Shown: positions 8,288 through 32,679 of the stretch, piece by piece
Numbering within the stretch: position 1 is the stretch's first letter
Layout: each line of letters opens with the position of its first letter
From: Nocardia aurea
GTDB taxonomy: Bacteria > Actinomycetota > Actinomycetes > Mycobacteriales > Mycobacteriaceae
Reading direction: 5' to 3'
DNA: 64,000 bases
Assembly: GCF_003123685.1 (NCBI RefSeq)
Contig: NZ_QCYJ01000103.1
Coordinates: 744,001 to 808,000 of the forward strand
Notes under the pieces: generated by a model
Databases searched by the model: none
The model's input: the letters and a program-made list of their open reading frames with translations, nothing else
Told to the model about the DNA's origin: nothing
Translations under genes and position numbers: made by a program

Positions 8288-9748
8288 TCACGCTCGACGG
8301 ATGCGGCGATAAGTGGGCGCGGCGGACGCGGCGGCGGCGAGTTCGGTGGCGAGCCACGGGAGGTCGGCATCGGTGACGGGGGAGACGGTGAGCCGGACGT
8401 GGTCGGATCGAGGCGTGTCGGCCGCTTCGAACGGGCCGCCGGGCGCGACCTTGATCCCCGCGGCGGCCAGCGAGATCATCGCGGCGTTCTCGTCGGCGAC
8501 GGGCAGCCAGAGGTTGATGCCGTCCGCGCGGGCCACCGTGATGTCGTGGGTAGCCAGTTCACGGCGTAATTCGGTCGAACGTCTCCGGTACTCGGCGCGC
8601 GCGGCGGTGACGGTGTCGGCGGCGGTGGGATCGTCGAGCATGGTGAGCAGGACGCGCTGGAGCAGGCGGCTGGTCCAGCCCGCCCCGAGCATGCGTCGTT
8701 CGATGACCGGATCGAGCAACTCGGCGGGGCCGCCCGCGACGGCGAGACGCAGATCCGCGCCGTGGGATTTGGAGTACGAGCGCACGTGGACGGTGCGCCG
8801 TGGCAGCCGGGCGCCGAGGGAACGCAGTGGGGCGGAGGCGATTCCGGCGGAATGGTCGTCCTCGACGATCAGGGTGTCGGTGGCGCGGAGGATATCGGTG
8901 AGTTCGCGCACGCGGCGCGCGGCGAGCGATACCCCGGTGGGATTCTGGGCCCGGGGTTGCAGGATCAGTGCGCCGACACCGAAATCGGCGACCGCGCGGG
9001 ATAATTCGGCGGGCATCAATCCCGAGTCGTCGAGGTGGACCGGGACCGGTTTCGCCCCGAGGCGGGCCAGCAGATCGAGGAACGGCGGGAAACACGGATC
9101 CTCGACGGCCACCGCGTCCCCGAGCCGGATGTGGAGGGTGAGCAGCCTGTCGATGGCGTCGAGCGCACCGTCGAAGACGGCCAGCCGTTCCGCGCGGAAC
9201 GGCCAGTCGGGGCGGACCCTGGCGGCGAGTTCCGGCAGGACGGCGTCGCCGAGATACTCCGCGGCGAGGTCACCCGCGTCGACGGCGGTGATGGTGCGCA
9301 ATGCCGTCGCCAGGTCGGGGAGCAGGCCTGGGTCGGGGGTGCCGCGCGACAGATCGATACGGAACGCGCTGTCGGTCGGCGGGTGCAGTCGCTGATAGCG
9401 GCCGACTGCGGGACGGCCCGAGGGAAGTTCTCCGACGAAGGTGCCCGCGCGTCCCCTGGCGACGATCGCGCCGGTCGCCGCGAGCGCGCGCCAGGCCTGG
9501 TTGACCGTGGCCGGTGACACCCGGAGTTCGCGGGCCACCTCCCGCACCGTCGGTAGCCGCGATCCGGGAGCCATTGCGCCGGAGCGGATTCGGCGGCTGA
9601 GGGTGGCCGCGATTCCCGCGGGTGTGCGATCGTCGAGATCGGCGGTGAACTCCGAGGGCGACATCACGGCGGCGCTCGGCAGCGGCACGGTCGAACCGGG
9701 CGCAACGCGGTCGTCCGCGTCATCGGTACCCGCCCGTTCGATGCTCAC
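8288..9748 (-). CDS. MocR-type regulator: GntR DNA-binding domain fused to an aminotransferase fold
   Basis: 486 residues. A winged-helix GntR domain (about 40-110, with SRLPTVREVARELRVSPATV) precedes a class I aminotransferase-like domain with the PLP-lysine region SYSKSHGADLRLAV. MocR regulators bind PLP and an amino compound rather than acting as enzymes. The gene is divergent from the pyrimidine-degradation operon starting at 9871, whose last step is a PLP aminotransferase. This regulator is the natural candidate to control it, possibly sensing beta-alanine or a related amine (inference). Confidence 0.87.
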   Translation of the reverse strand: MSIERAGTDDADDRVAPGSTVPLPSAAVMSPSEFTADLDDRTPAGIAATLSRRIRSGAMAPGSRLPTVREVARELRVSPATVNQAWRALAATGAIVARGRAGTFVGELPSGRPAVGRYQRLHPPTDSAFRIDLSRGTPDPGLLPDLATALRTITAVDAGDLAAEYLGDAVLPELAARVRPDWPFRAERLAVFDGALDAIDRLLTLHIRLGDAVAVEDPCFPPFLDLLARLGAKPVPVHLDDSGLMPAELSRAVADFGVGALILQPRAQNPTGVSLAARRVRELTDILRATDTLIVEDDHSAGIASAPLRSLGARLPRRTVHVRSYSKSHGADLRLAVAGGPAELLDPVIERRMLGAGWTSRLLQRVLLTMLDDPTAADTVTAARAEYRRRSTELRRELATHDITVARADGINLWLPVADENAAMISLAAAGIKVAPGGPFEAADTPRSDHVRLTVSPVTDADLPWLATELAAAASAAPTYRRIRRA

Positions 9749-25025: not shown

Positions 25026-25178
25026 ATGCCTGACACCAACTATAGCCGCAAACCTGTGAGCGACCTGTGGCATGTCGTGCGGCCACACCTCACCGTCGCA
25101 GCGAGCGTCATCGGATTGATCGCCCTCGAAGCGGTACTCATCTTCGCTGTCATGCCGACGATCGCGAGCGGCCAGTGA
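25026..25178 (+). CDS. Small single-span membrane protein
   Basis: 50 residues. ATG 25026 follows GGAAGGAC. A short soluble head (PDTNYSRKPVSDLW) is followed by one hydrophobic helix (LTVAASVIGLIALEAVLIFA). It is the first gene of the recombination operon and its stop overlaps the exonuclease start (GTGA). Function unknown. Confidence 0.65.
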   Translation: MPDTNYSRKPVSDLWHVVRPHLTVAASVIGLIALEAVLIFAVMPTIASGQ

Positions 25179-26119
25179 GCATCATCCTCCCGCCCCTCGA
25201 AGCAGGATCCGACGCCTGGGCTCGCATGATCACCGCGTCGAAAATCCCGGGCATCTACGGACAGTCCAAGTTCTCATCCCCGACCAAAGAGTTCCACGCC
25301 CTCCGTGGTGAGATCCCGCCCGACCCCGACAACACGGCCATGGAACTCGGCAGGGACTTCGAGCCGATCATTCTCGCCCGGTTCTTCCGCCGCCACCCCG
25401 AACTCACTCGCCAGCCACACGCCTCCTACACGCGCCTTGGCCTCGAAGAGTGGGCATCGGCCACACCCGACGCCACCGCCCACGCGAACGGGGGGCGACT
25501 CATCGGCGTCGAAGCCAAAGTCGACGCACACGACGACTACCGCTGGACCGACGAACCCCCCGTAGGCGTTTGGCTGCAAACCCAATGGCAGATGCACCTC
25601 TCCGGGGCGCGAGTCACCTACGTCGTCAAGTTCGGTGCGTTCCTCGCCGAAGACGAATACATCGTCGAATACGACCGCACCCAAGCCGAGGACATGGAGG
25701 ACTACCTCGGCTGGTTCCACGCCAACGCCATGGACCCCAACGGCGTGCCACCCGAACTCGACGGACACGCCGAAACCTACGACGCCATCCGCCGCGTCAA
25801 CACCCTCGTCGACGTCGATGCCGACGACTGGGACATCGGCTATGACCTGGCGCGCGAATTCGACAACGCCGTCCGCGGATTCGATGCCGCCGAGACCGCC
25901 CTGAACCTCGCCAAGTCGAAGCTGTTGCGCGTCATGGGCGACGCCCGCCGCGCCGTCATCGGCGAAGGCAAACAGCGCCAGACCGTCGCGACCAGGCAGC
26001 GCACCAAGAAGGGCGTCGCCATCTACAAGGGCCGCAAACCCATCGACTGGGTTGCTGCTGGATTCGCCGACCCGCTCGCCGCCCCTGCCCTCATCGCCTC
26101 GAACCAGGAAGCAGCCTGA
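25175..26119 (+). CDS. YqaJ/RecB-family phage exonuclease
   Basis: 314 residues from GTG 25175. The PD-(D/E)xK nuclease core is visible: Glu58/Glu64 region in TAMELGRDFEPIIL, Asp99 in ASATPDA, and the catalytic Glu113-x-Lys115 in GVEAKVD, followed by the QTQWQMHLSG motif typical of YqaJ-type recombinases. It would resect double-strand ends to make 3' single strands for the annealing protein encoded next. The two-gene pair parallels lambda Exo/Beta. Confidence 0.88.
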   Translation: MSIILPPLEAGSDAWARMITASKIPGIYGQSKFSSPTKEFHALRGEIPPDPDNTAMELGRDFEPIILARFFRRHPELTRQPHASYTRLGLEEWASATPDATAHANGGRLIGVEAKVDAHDDYRWTDEPPVGVWLQTQWQMHLSGARVTYVVKFGAFLAEDEYIVEYDRTQAEDMEDYLGWFHANAMDPNGVPPELDGHAETYDAIRRVNTLVDVDADDWDIGYDLAREFDNAVRGFDAAETALNLAKSKLLRVMGDARRAVIGEGKQRQTVATRQRTKKGVAIYKGRKPIDWVAAGFADPLAAPALIASNQEAA

Positions 26120-26120
26120 C

Positions 26121-26987
26121 ATGCCATTCACTGAAGCGCAGATCAATCAACTCCTCGCTGCGGTCAACCCTGTTCGGGTCATGCGAGATGGCAAAGGCAA
26201 TGCTCACTTGCCGCAACAGGACGTGCTCGCCCACCTCACCCGCATCTTCGGGTTCGGAGCCTTCGACTACGAAATGCTTTCGTGCGAACTCGTCTTCGAG
26301 CAGCAGCACCGCAAGCGCAACGGCGAGACCCCCGATGGCCGCTTCGACGTCTGCTACAAGGCAACCATGCGGCTCACCGTCCGCGATCCCGAGGGCAACG
26401 TCGTCTGCCGCTTCGAGGACGGCTCCACCGGAGACTCTTCGAACCAGACCCGAGCCGACGGCCACGACCTCGCCATGAAATCGGCTATCTCGCTGGCGAA
26501 GAAGCGATGCGCCATCGCACTCGGCGACCAATTCGGGCTGTCGCTCTATAACAAGGGGCAGACGACCGCGCTGGTAAAAAACACGCTGATCCGACCATCG
26601 GCCGACACCGCAGAAACGCCCGAAGTCGCCGACGTGCAGCGGGACGTCCCGCCGTCGTTGTCTATGGGCTACGACGAGGTCGAGCGAGAGCGTCACGCGG
26701 ACGAAGCAGGAGAAGGTGCCGCGCCCACGAATGGTGAGCAGCGGAGCGCCCCCGTAGCGAATCAGGCGCGGACTGTCACGCGAAGGCGACCGCCACAACC
26801 CTCAGCGGCCGACCTGGATGCGCTCGCAAAGGAACTGCGGGCCGACGTCGAATTGGCGACCAACCGCGAGCAACTGCAACGGGTGTGGAAGTTGGCCGTG
26901 CAGCTCGACGCATCCCAATGCACGGAGATCCGTGGACTTACCGAGGCGAAGGTTGCCGCCCTTGCCGAGAACGTGACGGCGGCATAA
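26121..26987 (+). CDS. Rad52-like single-strand annealing protein
   Basis: 288 residues. Residues 1-150 match the Rad52/22 annealing fold: FTEAQINQLLAAVNPVRV, HLTRIFGFGAFDYEML, the beta-rich middle and SNQTRADGHDLAMKSAISLAKKRCAI. The C-terminal 130 residues are charged and less conserved, probably for protein contacts. It lies one base after the exonuclease stop and would anneal the strands that enzyme exposes. Confidence 0.85.
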   Translation: MPFTEAQINQLLAAVNPVRVMRDGKGNAHLPQQDVLAHLTRIFGFGAFDYEMLSCELVFEQQHRKRNGETPDGRFDVCYKATMRLTVRDPEGNVVCRFEDGSTGDSSNQTRADGHDLAMKSAISLAKKRCAIALGDQFGLSLYNKGQTTALVKNTLIRPSADTAETPEVADVQRDVPPSLSMGYDEVERERHADEAGEGAAPTNGEQRSAPVANQARTVTRRRPPQPSAADLDALAKELRADVELATNREQLQRVWKLAVQLDASQCTEIRGLTEAKVAALAENVTAA

Positions 26988-28619: not shown

Positions 28620-29335
28620 GCGGGCTCACTTACCGGTCGAAGCAAACGAAGCTCTACAAGTATCGGAAAGCCAACGGCATCCAAGTCTTCACCGACGCGG
28701 CGCCCGTCCAAGCCCACATCCTCGGGCTACGAGCGCTCGGCGTCACCGATTCGATGATCGCCCACGTCTCCGGCAACGACCCACAAAACATCGCCTACAT
28801 CGCCGACGGCACCACCCAAAGGGTGTGGCAGGACAACGCCCGCCGCATCCTCGCCGTCACCCACCATCCCCACCCCGCACAGCATTTCGTCCTCACCATC
28901 GGATTCACGCGCCGCTACCGGGCACTCACCGCCATTGGCTGGCCCAGCGCCTACATCGCCGAACGCATCGGCGTCTCCGGTAAGAACCGGCTCAACTCGA
29001 TTGCCGCCCAACCTGCCGTCACCTATCGCACATGGTCGGCCATGCGCGACCTGTACGACGAACTATCAGGCACGCCAGGGCCGAGCCGACGCAGCATCGC
29101 AGACGGGCGCCGACACAAATACATGCCGCCGCTCGCATGGGACGACATCGACGACCCGCGCGCACAACCTGATTGGGCCGCGGTCGGGATCCCGCTCACG
29201 CAACGACCGATGTGCGCGCAAGGGCACTGGTATCCAGCCGAGCCCGCGCGAGACAGCCGCGGAACCCGCATGTGCCGCGAATGCCGTCGAGACGCCCAGG
29301 CGCGACGCAGAGTCAAGCTCGCGTCCGGACGTTGA
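28616..29335 (+). CDS. Tandem HTH protein with C-terminal zinc finger
   Basis: 239 residues. Two HTH-like repeats (ALGVTDSMIAHVSGNDPQNI; AIGWPSAYIAERIGVSGKNR) are followed by a zinc-binding tail, MCAQGHWY and CRECRRDAQARRR. That architecture is common in actinophage HTH proteins. It overlaps the preceding gene by 4 bp and has the same repeat logic, so the two may act together. Partner DNA sites unknown. Confidence 0.75.
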   Translation: MSGLTYRSKQTKLYKYRKANGIQVFTDAAPVQAHILGLRALGVTDSMIAHVSGNDPQNIAYIADGTTQRVWQDNARRILAVTHHPHPAQHFVLTIGFTRRYRALTAIGWPSAYIAERIGVSGKNRLNSIAAQPAVTYRTWSAMRDLYDELSGTPGPSRRSIADGRRHKYMPPLAWDDIDDPRAQPDWAAVGIPLTQRPMCAQGHWYPAEPARDSRGTRMCRECRRDAQARRRVKLASGR

Positions 29336-29375
29336 TCGCATCGCACTGGAAGGTGTATGGTGTGATGAACGCGTG
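29332..29375 (+). promoter_or_regulatory. Promoter of the replication operon with GTGATGATCTAGA element
   Basis: TTGATC (29332-29337), 18-nt spacer, TATGGT (29356-29361), then GTGATGATCTAGA (29372 onward), a variant of the phage-wide element. It lies immediately after the stop at 29335. Confidence 0.55.
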
Positions 29376-29420
29376 ATGATCTAGAACATCGAGTCATCGC
29401 GAGAGCTTCAAACGCAAATC

Positions 29421-29509
29421 GGGCCGCCCTGTCGACCAAAACAAGGGCGGCCCGAAAAAGCTTTGCACGCATTACCAGTGCGTGCGGCTGACGTAGCCAA
29501 ACTGGCTAC
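29421..29509 (+). ncRNA. Structured 5' leader with three consecutive hairpins
   Basis: Between promoter 29356 and the first start codon the RNA folds into three perfect stems. These are GGGCCGCCCT/AGGGCGGCCC (29421-29453), GCACGCA/TGCGTGC (29465-29485, 7-nt loop) and GTAGCC/GGCTAC (29493-29509, 5-nt loop). There is no T-run after the first stem, so simple termination is unlikely. It may be a regulatory leader or a small RNA. Confidence 0.45.
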
Positions 29510-29572
29510 CAGCAAAGCGCCCGTGGGAGCGGGCACATTATGAGTGTAACACGCAGTGCGCGCTGGGAACAC

Positions 29573-29839
29573 ATGACGCAGCAAGACATTCGCAGCCTGT
29601 TCCGCGGAATCGCGAAACGGTACGGCCACGAAATCGACGCCACCGAAATACCCGCATGGCTTGCTGAAGGCAATCGCGAATGGGTGTGGGCCGGATCCGT
29701 CGCCGTCGATGATCTCGTCCGCGCTGTCAAAGACTTCTATGCCGCCGACCCCAATGGCCGCATCACTCCGCAGGCCGTCACGGCGATCATCCATTCCTAC
29801 TACGGCGGCGAACTGCCGCGCGAGGACGGTGCGGCATGA
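29573..29839 (+). CDS. Small replication-module protein, possible helicase loader (G39P-like)
   Basis: 88 residues from ATG 29573; an earlier ATG at 29540 would add 11 residues. The later start is chosen because it aligns end-to-end with the paralogue at 30918 (MTQQDIRSLFRGIAKRY against MTRDEVIALLAVANTY). All-helical with WVWAGSVAVDDLVRAVKDFYAADP and RITPQAVTAIIHSYY. Its shape and position before an initiator and helicase recall G39P-type loader/inhibitor proteins; that function is inference. Confidence 0.65.
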   Translation: MTQQDIRSLFRGIAKRYGHEIDATEIPAWLAEGNREWVWAGSVAVDDLVRAVKDFYAADPNGRITPQAVTAIIHSYYGGELPREDGAA

Positions 29840-30921
29840 GCTGGCAGGCGAGGGAGTGGGTCGACACGTACATCCCGCCAGAGTTGGGCGTGAAGCTGGC
29901 CGCCCGCGCTGTCCTCGGCGTCTACGCCGACTACGCCGACGAGCATGGCCGCGGTTCCTACCCATCGCATTTGACGGTGGCATGGCGTCTCTCCTGCACC
30001 GAACGCAACGTCGTCGATCACGTCAAAGCCTTGGTCGAGAAGGGCGCCTTGATCGTTTCGACCGATCAGTCCGCGGTAGCCAAATATCCGGCAGACAACC
30101 GCCCCGTTGTGTACGACATCCCGATCCATCTGGTTCGCGCCGACACCCTCGAAGAGGCGCGAGACAAGAAGCGCCAACTGCTTCAGGAACGGCGCGACCG
30201 ACGCAAGCAGAAGATCGACGAACCCGCCACTGCCGAGCCTGTCGCGCGGTCTGAAGAATCCTTCCGTCACAGCGATAAGGGTCCGAAGAATCCTTCCACC
30301 ACGGTCCGAAGTTCTCTTCCGCCACGGTCTGAAGAAAACTTCCACCACGGTCCGAAGAAAACTTCGGACAAACAAGCATTTAAACCACCTACTAAAACAA
30401 CCCTTGAAACACACACCGCGCGCGAGGTCGAAACAGTCACCGCAGACGCCATCGAGACCGTGTGCATTCGCCTCCATGCCGGCATGGAACGCAACTGGAC
30501 CAACCTGCCCCCGCGGCGCCGAGGAGACCGGCCCGAAATCACAGACGGGTGGCGAGCGGCCATCCGCTGGCTCATCAAGGGCGGCGAATCAATCGACGTG
30601 ATCGAGAAGGTGGCCGTCTACTCGCAAGACGGCTGGTGGCTGGACAAATGCGCGGACATCGACGGATTCGTCAAGCACTTCAGCACCATGGCGGGCCAAG
30701 TCGAGCGAGACGCGCGAGTCGCATCCCTGCCGGCATCACCCACCTCACTCGCCAAAAAGGACGCCACCGTCCTCGAATGGGCGTCCCTCATGGACCACCC
30801 CGAAAACGCTGCCGCACTCATCGCGAACACGCCGCGCGCCGCAATCGAAAGCCCGCGACACAACCTCGACCCGATCCTCGAAATCACTGCGCACGAGACT
30901 CATTGGAGCGAAGCCGCATGA
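29836..30921 (+). CDS. Phage replication initiator with winged-helix domain and internal origin
   Basis: 361 residues. The N-terminal 100 residues form a winged helix of the HTH_36/DnaD-related type (LAARAVLGVYADYADEHGRGSYPSHLTVAWRL). A basic, Ser/Thr/Pro-rich linker (about 130-190) follows, then a helical C-terminal domain (WRAAIRWLIKGGESIDVIEKVAVYSQDGWW). The linker is encoded by 23-bp iterons (30248-30371), an arrangement like lambda O, so the protein most likely binds its own gene to start replication. Confidence 0.78.
   Translation: MSWQAREWVDTYIPPELGVKLAARAVLGVYADYADEHGRGSYPSHLTVAWRLSCTERNVVDHVKALVEKGALIVSTDQSAVAKYPADNRPVVYDIPIHLVRADTLEEARDKKRQLLQERRDRRKQKIDEPATAEPVARSEESFRHSDKGPKNPSTTVRSSLPPRSEENFHHGPKKTSDKQAFKPPTKTTLETHTAREVETVTADAIETVCIRLHAGMERNWTNLPPRRRGDRPEITDGWRAAIRWLIKGGESIDVIEKVAVYSQDGWWLDKCADIDGFVKHFSTMAGQVERDARVASLPASPTSLAKKDATVLEWASLMDHPENAAALIANTPRAAIESPRHNLDPILEITAHETHWSEAA
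30248..30371 (+). repeat. Iteron array, likely phage replication origin
   Basis: Five copies of a 23-bp repeat start at 30248, 30280, 30303, 30326 and 30349; the last four are head-to-tail at exactly 23 bp. Consensus: GGTCYGAAG, four variable bases, CTTCCRCCAC. Each has an internal GAAG/CTTC dyad. Because 23 is not a multiple of three, the encoded peptide is not repetitive, so selection acts on DNA. An AT-rich tract follows (30371-30417). Confidence 0.8.
30371..30417. other. AT-rich tract next to iterons (unwinding-element candidate)
   Basis: Roughly 47 bp with AAACAAGCATTTAAACC and ACTAAAACAACCCTTG, markedly AT-rich for this genome. It directly adjoins the iteron array and is the natural duplex-unwinding segment. 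Confidence 0.55.
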
Positions 30922-31151
30922 CCCGTGACGAAGTAATCGCGCTGCTCGCGGTCGCCAACACCTACGACGACCGCAAACCCTCCCAAGCCCTCATCTCGGC
31001 CTGGTCTGAATCCGCCGAACGCGCCGGATGGACCCTCGACGCCGCCAAGAACGCCATCCACGCCCACTACGCCGAAAACACCGACCGAATCATGCCCGGA
31101 CACATCACCCAGCACATCAAGGCCGAAAACCGAAGGTGGTACGAGCAGTGA
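30918..31151 (+). CDS. Second small replication-module protein, paralogue of 29573
   Basis: 77 residues. Aligns with the product at 29573 through start, central AW-S-AGWTLDAAKNAIHAHYAENTDRIMPGHI and the C-terminal helix. It overlaps both the initiator and the helicase genes by 4 bp. A helicase loader or inhibitor of the G39P kind is the most attractive role; unproven. Confidence 0.7.
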   Translation: MTRDEVIALLAVANTYDDRKPSQALISAWSESAERAGWTLDAAKNAIHAHYAENTDRIMPGHITQHIKAENRRWYEQ

Positions 31152-32473
31152 GCTACGACGACGAAACCCCCACCTACGACGACGCGGCCGAACGCGCACT
31201 GCTCGGCGCCGCAATGCAAGCGCCGGAACAGATGCGCACCCACCTCCAGGCCGTCGACCCCGACTCCTGGCACCACCTTCGCTCGCGAACACTCGCAGGC
31301 GTCATCACCGCGATGATGAGTAATGGCGAACCCGTCAACCCGACTGCCGTCCTCGTGACAGCGCAGACCCGCGGGCTCGTCCCTGGCCGCGTAGACCCTG
31401 GCTACGTGTTCGCATGCCTCGAAGTCGCAGCCCAACCCGTCTCCGCGGGGCTGCTCGTCGACCGCATCCTCAACCTCGCCGCCTGCCGCAAGCTGTACGA
31501 AGTCACCACCCGCACCGCGCAACGCGTCGAATCGTCCTGGACCACAGGCGTCGACCGACTCGACACCCTCGAACACATCGCCTACCTCAAAACTGCGATG
31601 AGCGATGTCGAAAAGGTGCTCACCAACAGCATTACGGCACCCAAGCCCGCAGGCGTTTTCCTCGCCGAGGAAAGCGAAGAAAACCCGTGGCTTGTTCCCG
31701 ACCTGTTCCAGCGCATGGACCGCCTCGTGCTCACAGGCGAGGAAGGACTCGGGAAAAGTGAGATGTGCTGCCAGATGGCGGTAGCGATGGCCGCGCACCT
31801 CCATCCACTCAGCGGCAAGCCCCTCGGCGACGACCTCCCGCCCATCCGGGTGCTCGTGGTCGACGTCGAGAACAGTGCCGCCCAGATTCGAGATCGCTAC
31901 AACCGGGTCGTCGGCATCGTCGACGGCCGACGGCGGATGTGCGGCCTGCCTCAGATCGATTGGGAATCCCAGGATGGCAACCTGCGCTTCTCCGATCCGC
32001 GTCCGGGCGGCATCAACCTGCTCGATAGTCGCGACGCCGCATGGGTCGAAAGCCAGCTGAGCCAGACGTCGCCCGATGTCCTCGTCATGGGTCCGCTGTA
32101 TCGGCTCCACAACGAGAACCCGAGCGAAGAACAGCCCGCTCGCAAACTCACCTGGATCATTGACCAGTGGCGCGAACAGTACGGGTTCGCGCTCATCACC
32201 GAAGCTCACGCAGGCAAGGCGCTCAACAGCACTGGCACCCGCAGCATGGCGCCGATCGGTTCCAGCGTGTGGCTGCGCTGGCCCGAATACGGCTTCGGAA
32301 TGCGGCGGGCGAAGGAGGATGCGGGCGGCAAGAACGTCGAAATCTCCGACTTTGTCGCCTGGCGTGGCGCTCGCTCTAAGGGGATTTGGCCGCGGCAGTT
32401 CAATCGCAGCAACTCAATGCTGCCGTGGATGCCGGATGAGGGCTACTACGACGAACTGCGGCAAGCGGCGTGA
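31148..32473 (+). CDS. DnaB-like replicative helicase / RepA-type AAA ATPase
   Basis: 441 residues from GTG 31148. The first 120 residues form a DnaB N-terminal domain (AERALLGAAMQAPEQM). A RecA-fold ATPase follows with Walker A GEEGLGKSE (197-205), Walker B VLVVDVEN (about 238) and LVMGPLYRLHNENPSEEQ. The ATPase resembles AAA_25/RepA helicases more than canonical DnaB. It closes the replication module and is presumably loaded by one of the two small helical proteins. Confidence 0.82.
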   Translation: MSYDDETPTYDDAAERALLGAAMQAPEQMRTHLQAVDPDSWHHLRSRTLAGVITAMMSNGEPVNPTAVLVTAQTRGLVPGRVDPGYVFACLEVAAQPVSAGLLVDRILNLAACRKLYEVTTRTAQRVESSWTTGVDRLDTLEHIAYLKTAMSDVEKVLTNSITAPKPAGVFLAEESEENPWLVPDLFQRMDRLVLTGEEGLGKSEMCCQMAVAMAAHLHPLSGKPLGDDLPPIRVLVVDVENSAAQIRDRYNRVVGIVDGRRRMCGLPQIDWESQDGNLRFSDPRPGGINLLDSRDAAWVESQLSQTSPDVLVMGPLYRLHNENPSEEQPARKLTWIIDQWREQYGFALITEAHAGKALNSTGTRSMAPIGSSVWLRWPEYGFGMRRAKEDAGGKNVEISDFVAWRGARSKGIWPRQFNRSNSMLPWMPDEGYYDELRQAA

Positions 32474-32679
32474 GTGTCAGTCCGCCGCCGAATGACGGCC
32501 AAACCATCGTCGGCGTCGTCGAGTACTGGGCGCGGCGCTGGCCCGACAAGAAACCGCCCATGTTCCGTGCCGCCGATGTCTTGCCGTTGCTGCATGGCGA
32601 TGACCGCGAGTATGCCGCCGCGGTGACGTTGCTCGACAGCGGGAGAGTCCATTACGCCGAGGGGGAGGAACCTTCGTGA
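32470..32679 (+). CDS. Hypothetical small winged-helix-like protein
   Basis: 69 residues from GTG 32470 (GTGA overlap with the helicase gene). The segment PMFRAADVLPLLHGDDREYAAAVTLLDSGRVHY has the spacing of a short winged helix. Function unknown. Confidence 0.6.
   Translation: MSVSPPPNDGQTIVGVVEYWARRWPDKKPPMFRAADVLPLLHGDDREYAAAVTLLDSGRVHYAEGEEPS

Follow-up and report, generated by a model that had tools for sequence, protein, structure and literature searches.

In the available passages of PMC7466680 and PMC5043065, the origin of bacteriophage lambda is described as four dyad iterons located inside gene O at 20-24 bp spacing and followed by an AT-rich tract. Origin features are annotated at the same place inside the O-like genes of lambda and P22, and in P22 the initiator gene 18, with its annotated intragenic origin, is followed by the DnaB-like gene 12. 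Among plasmids of the RepA_N type, the ori of pSK41 lies inside rep together with the DNA-binding N-terminal domain, and in pPR9 an HTH of pfam13730 replaces the RepA_N domain and origin region (PMC5703833, in the sections available). At RK2 oriV the iterons stand beside a ladder of short repeats, which is bound by the initiator as one single strand (PMC4081077, in the sections available). Other mycobacteriophage prophage origins include that of the RepA phages, which the accessible part of PMC7157519 places just upstream of or within repA.

The locus described here belongs to a window of 64,000 nucleotides of Nocardia aurea (contig NZ_QCYJ01000103.1, positions 744,001 to 808,000), in which the following features, numbered from the first letter of the window, were recognised:

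29540..29839, + strand, small gene of 99 aa with relatives in two other replication-gene loci (L005 and L008)
29836..30921, + strand, initiator gene of 361 aa: winged helix (aa 1-100), disordered linker (aa 134-200) and helical C-terminal part
30248..30270, + strand, iteron 1, 9 bp apart from the regular block
30280..30302, + strand, iteron 2
30303..30325, + strand, iteron 3
30326..30348, + strand, iteron 4
30349..30371, + strand, iteron 5, with the palindrome GTCCGAAG-AAAA-CTTCGGAC at 30350-30369
30370..30417, + strand, putative unwinding element of four degenerate 12-bp units at 30370, 30382, 30394 and 30406
30918..31151, + strand, small conserved gene of 77 aa (phrog_37378), predicted all-helical with low confidence
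31148..32473, + strand, DnaB-like helicase with a DnaB N-terminal domain and AAA_25 (phrog_19)

The locus displays features of the lambda O type, with intragenic dyad iterons between the DNA-binding and C-terminal parts and an AT-rich tract downstream. Nevertheless, the prophage layout of initiator, small gene and DnaB-like helicase is closer to P22 than to lambda, since the prophage encodes its own helicase whereas lambda loads the host DnaB through P (PMC5043065, in the passages available). P22 differs in lacking a small gene between initiator and helicase, the position occupied by the 77-aa gene in the Nocardia prophage, and in the sequences of its iterons and AT tract; the latter contains a 14-bp repeat, ACAAAAGACAATAT, in place of the ladder of GAACCRTCC units described below, to which the best match in gene 18 is 7/9. 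Lambda O contains one match of 8/9 to this unit and no ladder. In the AT-rich tracts of both phages (lambda, L232:722-744; P22, L233:927-960) a word ACAAAAGA is repeated at 15- and 14-bp spacing, respectively, weakly so in lambda, and is a possible counterpart of the ladder. RK2 oriV is not known to lie inside the initiator gene, its 13-mer TAAACnTTnTTTT is unlike GAACCRTCC and its Rep protein has two winged-helix domains. The pfam13730 family of pPR9 is the one matched, slightly under the cut-off, by the prophage initiator; the RepA_N systems differ, however, in being plasmids with another C-terminal domain, and the structural match is tied with many winged helices. Literature text searches, which handle sequence strings poorly and leave most subscription journals uncovered, returned no account of the GAACCRTCC ladder in the text available to them.

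The array and AT-rich tract within 29836-30921 are interpreted, from their sequence, as an intragenic prophage replication origin of the lambda/P22 type, with a probability of about 0.82 that it operates by the mechanism proposed here. The N-terminal winged helix of the initiator would, as dimers, bind and wrap the five dyad iterons, four of which are about two helical turns apart. The wrapped array would bend the DNA, and the resulting strain would melt the adjoining AT-rich ladder of 12-bp units. One strand of the melted ladder, which is conserved in sequence beyond AT-richness and is probably read as a single strand, would then be held by the initiator or a partner, and the DnaB-like helicase encoded downstream would be loaded there. 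Binding, melting, strand capture and helicase loading are steps that we infer. The candidate origin would be self-contained, taking up some 170 bp of a 1.1-kb gene in the prophage of this high-GC host.

Judged by its genes, the element is a prophage. The window also encodes a RecE-like exonuclease, a Rad52-type annealing protein, a repressor and a C5 methyltransferase (Pfam, PHROG), while the next 20 kb beyond it encode terminase, portal, minor head, major head and major tail proteins. The exonuclease and annealing protein genes adjoin each other at 25163-26984 as a phage recombination pair, and a gene at 62366-63469 matches phrog_562, ‘RNA ligase and tail fiber protein attachment catalyst’ (1.3e-63). 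The cumulative GC skew over 10-64 kb has its minimum near 32 kb, which moves to 83.9 kb once the next 20 kb are added. Both the DnaB N-terminal domain and AAA_25 of the helicase exceed the Pfam cut-off, in agreement with the helicase gene that the initial annotation had placed nearby. The same annotation termed the two small flanking genes loader-like, a label that is unproven: no loader match was found for them in PHROGs, Pfam or PDB sequences. Relatives of both small proteins are present in other initiator loci. The 77-aa family retains an L...W...A...H...P pattern, and the model of this protein (pLDDT 59.6) is too poor for a fold search.

The initiator matches phrog_1032 (2.8e-11), phrog_270 (2e-8) and phrog_391, ‘replication initiation O-like’ (2.1e-8). 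In a Pfam scan extended to E 0.1 the sole match was PF13730 HTH_36, with 22.7 bits slightly under the 25-bit cut-off; neither RepA_N nor Phage_rep_O (PF04492), which we take to be the lambda O family, was matched. The lambda O-like character originally claimed for the locus is thus borne out by the PHROG match, the intragenic dyad iterons and the downstream AT tract, but not by Phage_rep_O. AlphaFold2 modelled residues 1-100 as a confident winged helix, which, together with the HTH_36 match, substantiates the winged-helix protein proposed previously. The pLDDT is below 50 across residues 134-200 and confidence is also lower in the C-terminal helical part. The array, at residues about 138-179, and the AT-rich tract fall inside the predicted disordered linker. 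The two best Foldseek entries, 4pt7 (‘Structure of initiator’) and 4pql, both presumably RepA_N domains, gave weak E values of 0.035-0.043, and their Z of 7.2-7.3 is level with that of many other winged helices. VIA-align rows for the initiator are tied winged helices, and that no lambda O structure stands among the rows listed excludes nothing. PDB sequence searches with the initiator and both small flanking proteins returned nothing relevant.

The array spans 30247-30371 and comprises five copies of GGTCYGAAG-N4-CTTC with a spacing of 32, 23, 23 and 23 bp, confirming the five repeats reported initially at 30248, 30280, 30303, 30326 and 30349, the last four 23 bp apart. All five iterons are dyads centred on GAAG-N4-CTTC, iteron 5 being the most symmetric with 8/10 arm pairs vs 5-7 in the other four. 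The array is the top tandem repeat of the window (TRF score 116 vs 54 for the next, among 41 rows), and its core pattern, GGTCYGAAGNNNNCTTC, has no exact match in the 9.37 Mb assembly other than the five in the array. The lag-23 self-match score of 39 was reached by 0/3000 synonymous-codon shuffles of the initiator gene (maximum 31); elsewhere in the window, no non-overlapping stretch of 1086 nt scored above 18. Iterons start in codon frames 1, 0, 2, 1 and 0, thus using all three, and conservation therefore acts at the DNA level, the encoded peptide being insufficient as its cause. Together with the shuffles, this sustains the DNA-level conservation claimed at the outset; the accompanying statement that the linker peptide is unrepeated stands as far as three frames are used but not entirely, as iterons three apart share a frame and encode partly recurring peptides (RSEESFRH/RSEENFHH and GPKNPST/GPKKTSD).

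The tract at 30370-30417 lies on the helicase side of the repeats and has 38% G+C vs 62% for the initiator gene, as expected from the AT-rich tract described earlier. It has its own repeat ladder, which the initial annotation overlooked. The four units match GAACCRTCC at 6, 7, 7 and 6 of 9 positions, respectively, and are 12 bp apart, the first lying directly 3′ of the last iteron palindrome. The resulting 26/36 positions are the best value of the gene, tied with an offset one unit upstream, and were reached by 0/5000 base shuffles but by 19/2000 synonymous shuffles. The window ladder is a degenerate version, weaker than the ladder of the family.

Searches of viral and genome contigs with the whole initiator sequence found no relative. 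Homologues were collected by profile searches of whole genomes and four phage loci, the loci coming from among the matches listed, and comprised 42 unique genes with a full winged-helix domain (E <1e-20) and, at a winged-helix E of 1e-20 to 1e-8, 31 partial genes encoding no fewer than 150 aa. In L002 and L003, the two nearest relatives, TRF detects arrays that share the 23-bp period and the location but not the sequence; the ungapped lag test places L002 above all shuffles, and L003 is equalled by 1/200, small length changes interrupting its copies. The repeat beats all 200 synonymous shuffles in 24 of the 42 full-domain homologues, with lags of 22 (17 genes), 23 (3), 24 (2), 25 (1) and 34 (1), and in 9 of the 31 partial ones. 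Eighteen of the 42 fail to do so. They comprise a nine-gene group (L012-L017, L019, L020, L024) in which 29 to 160 of 200 shuffles were as good and 3-4 GGGGTGAC-like sites of uneven spacing were seen by eye, L042 (157/200, no repeat visible), L034 (29/200), and L003, L025, L035, L040, L087, L089 and L090 (1 to 9 of 200). Five named phages, PseuP_222, Parlo, Riah, Vulpecula and JBD68, were tested apart from the homologue set, JBD68 being already among the 42 and the other four new, and in each the repeat score was reached by 0/100 synonymous shuffles. The repeats that were proposed to be sought at the same place in relatives are therefore present in L002 and L003, in 24/42 homologues and in the five phages. 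These sequences indicate that many related genes keep the intragenic plan while the iteron sequence changes.

On the 3′ side of the arrays a DNA word, ACCGTCCTTGAACC, occurs in different reading frames in different genes. Ladder units were counted as GAACCRTCC with at most 1 mismatch over the first 360 nt 3′ of the winged-helix sequence. The 42 genes contain 67 coding-strand units vs 9 on the other strand (200 synonymous shuffles: mean 25.1, maximum 40), distributed over the three frames as 34, 21 and 12, with at least two frames used in 16/42 genes; at least one unit is present in 31/42 genes (shuffles, mean 19.1, maximum 26). The 31 partial genes present 30 units on the coding strand vs 1 on the other (null mean 12.8, maximum 21), and 13 of them have at least one (shuffles, mean 9.7, maximum 15). 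Distances were taken from an 8/9 unit to others of at least 7/9 whose first base is A or G, for which 48/73 genes were eligible, and cluster at 10-13, 21-25 and 32-37 bp with none at 14-18, which corresponds to one unit for each helical turn. In many homologues the ladder region encodes recurring EPS-type peptides. An iteron ending CACCC or CCC lies directly 5′ of the first RAACC in many contexts, and the last iteron near the ladder tends to be the best dyad: a dyad among the best three is centred 9.5-11 bp before the ladder in 23/42 viral contexts. As a rule without exception this tendency was rejected, as the best dyad lies within 20 bp of the ladder in only 16/42 of these contexts, 21-45 bp from it in 12/42 and further away in 14/42. 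The exact 12-bp-spaced double unit GAACCRTCCNTNGAACCRTCC was found in 1/296 genomes of the class and is absent from the host’s own.

An exact ladder across host phyla was likewise discarded, because among the five named phages it is clear in Vulpecula only. This Arthrobacter phage has four ladder units in three frames (0/300 shuffles as good), while Riah has two units of at least 8/9 (17/300), Serratia phage Parlo one (139/300) and the Pseudomonas phages PseuP_222 and JBD68 none. Perfect units occur in Vulpecula and in another Arthrobacter phage, Abidatro. By eye, the ladder site reads GAACCAGTCAAT-GAACCGGTCATT in PseuP_222 and GAACCACCAAA-GAACC in JBD68. The corresponding loci (L239 and L027, respectively) display GAACC steps 11-12 bp apart after their arrays, with a unit other than GAACCRTCC (GAACCAGTCAAT and GAACCACCAAA, respectively). 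GAACC steps may be more widespread than the complete unit, and the Pseudomonas version is perhaps group-specific.

Because the motif was derived from some of the homologue genes, other sequences were scanned. Two GAACCRTCC units 2-3 bp apart, sought in viral contigs without using protein, were found in 76 contigs. The motif lies inside an ORF with a winged helix (domain E <1e-3) in 45 of them; the other 31 have no such ORF or are cut contigs. In the control, a permuted motif occurred in 38 contigs, 0/38 in a winged-helix ORF. The 45 contigs form 37 clusters at 80% identity, and 41 contigs and 34 clusters remain without L126, L157, L160 and L177, near-copies of genes already used. Ten out of ten sampled ORFs match replication-initiation PHROGs, and the protein relatives of three viral contigs belong to phages of many genera at <60% identity. 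Array and ladder thus constitute a DNA-only rule by which phage initiator genes were found in these viral contigs. Ten proteins, drawn from the three ORFs next to the initiator on its downstream side in ten contigs, comprise four methyltransferases, two DnaB-like helicases, two portal proteins, one transposase and one unknown, and therefore no single neighbour accounts for the ladder. Left out of the 45 were the motif-only L115, L146 and L151, the cut stretches L155, L170 and L130, whose remaining ORF is similar by eye, and L138 (no ORF >150 nt among those listed), L118 and L148. L138 has ladder-like GAACCATCCAC 11-mers in an AT-rich stretch at 9484-9517, and in L118 and L148 a 24-bp array with a ladder lies within ORFs that lack any recognised winged helix; on sequence grounds, these three may represent origins that belong to a different initiator family.

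No DnaA box with fewer than two mismatches is present at 29001-32600 of the window. A perfect box, TGTGGATAA, lies between winged helix and array in 7/42 full-domain and 2/31 partial homologues (synonymous null mean 0.4 and 0.1, respectively), with constant strand and codon frame in these nine of 73 loci (L006, L011, L031-L035, L100 and L101), which suggests that host DnaA may take part in some of these origins. Since the box is missing from the window and was found in 0/45 viral-contig genes, it is considered optional and outside the proposed mechanism.

The dyad sites and winged helix would also fit a regulator, and many of the best 50 Foldseek rows are MarR-/ArsR-type regulators, all with weak E values. 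The repeats could then be operators through which the winged-helix protein controls the downstream helicase genes, with replication starting elsewhere. This is unlikely, as the PHROG matches are replication-initiation families, many arrays have the repeat ladder on one side, the O-like genes of P22 and lambda carry annotated origin features at the corresponding position, and the best Foldseek entries are an initiator structure and 4pql, although at an E of only 0.035-0.043.

Less probable still is that the repeats owe their conservation to the encoded peptide linker, or that they are a functionless tandem duplication arising by chance or slippage. The common codon frame of iterons three apart and the EPS-type peptides recurring in the ladder would be compatible with such an origin, but the iterons occupy three frames and are matched by 0/3000 synonymous shuffles, the arrays vary in sequence among relatives at constant place and spacing, and ladder units fall in all three frames, with several used within single genes (16/42). 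The precedent of winged-helix initiators with intragenic origins in RepA_N plasmids, pSK41 and pPR9 (PMC5703833, in the sections available) would accommodate sites of the iteron-plasmid kind, the array restricting how many copies a plasmid-like prophage or ancestor maintains and not serving as a phage replication start; the element, however, has phage packaging and structural genes, and the odds of this explanation are just as slight.

If the intragenic prophage origin is considered jointly with the family, a broader reading emerges that we hold tentatively, at somewhat less than even odds. A widespread group of phages would possess a two-part intragenic origin code, in which fast-changing iterons, perhaps co-diversifying with the winged helix, are combined with a conserved, frame-independent GAACCRTCC ladder in 10-13 bp steps from the last iteron. 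The initiator or the replicative helicase would land on the ladder in single-stranded form and in a sequence-specific manner, so that the ladder would be the phage equivalent of the RK2 13-mers and the DnaA-trio, degenerate in the Nocardia prophage and replaced by a GAACC-step variant in Pseudomonas phages such as PseuP_222. The odds of this code are lowered because the exact ladder was not found in four Pseudomonas/Serratia phages. The ladder remains alike where iterons and neighbouring genes vary, and its reader may therefore be the initiator itself or some general factor of the host, for example DnaB. If true, origins could switch specificity through their iterons yet retain the melting part, and should the ladder be recognised in single-stranded form, strand holding and helicase placement by phage initiators would be testable with short oligonucleotides. 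One genome, G638, displays 12 matches to the winged-helix profile, possibly reflecting several prophages with such an initiator, and would in that case constitute a natural test of origin compatibility.
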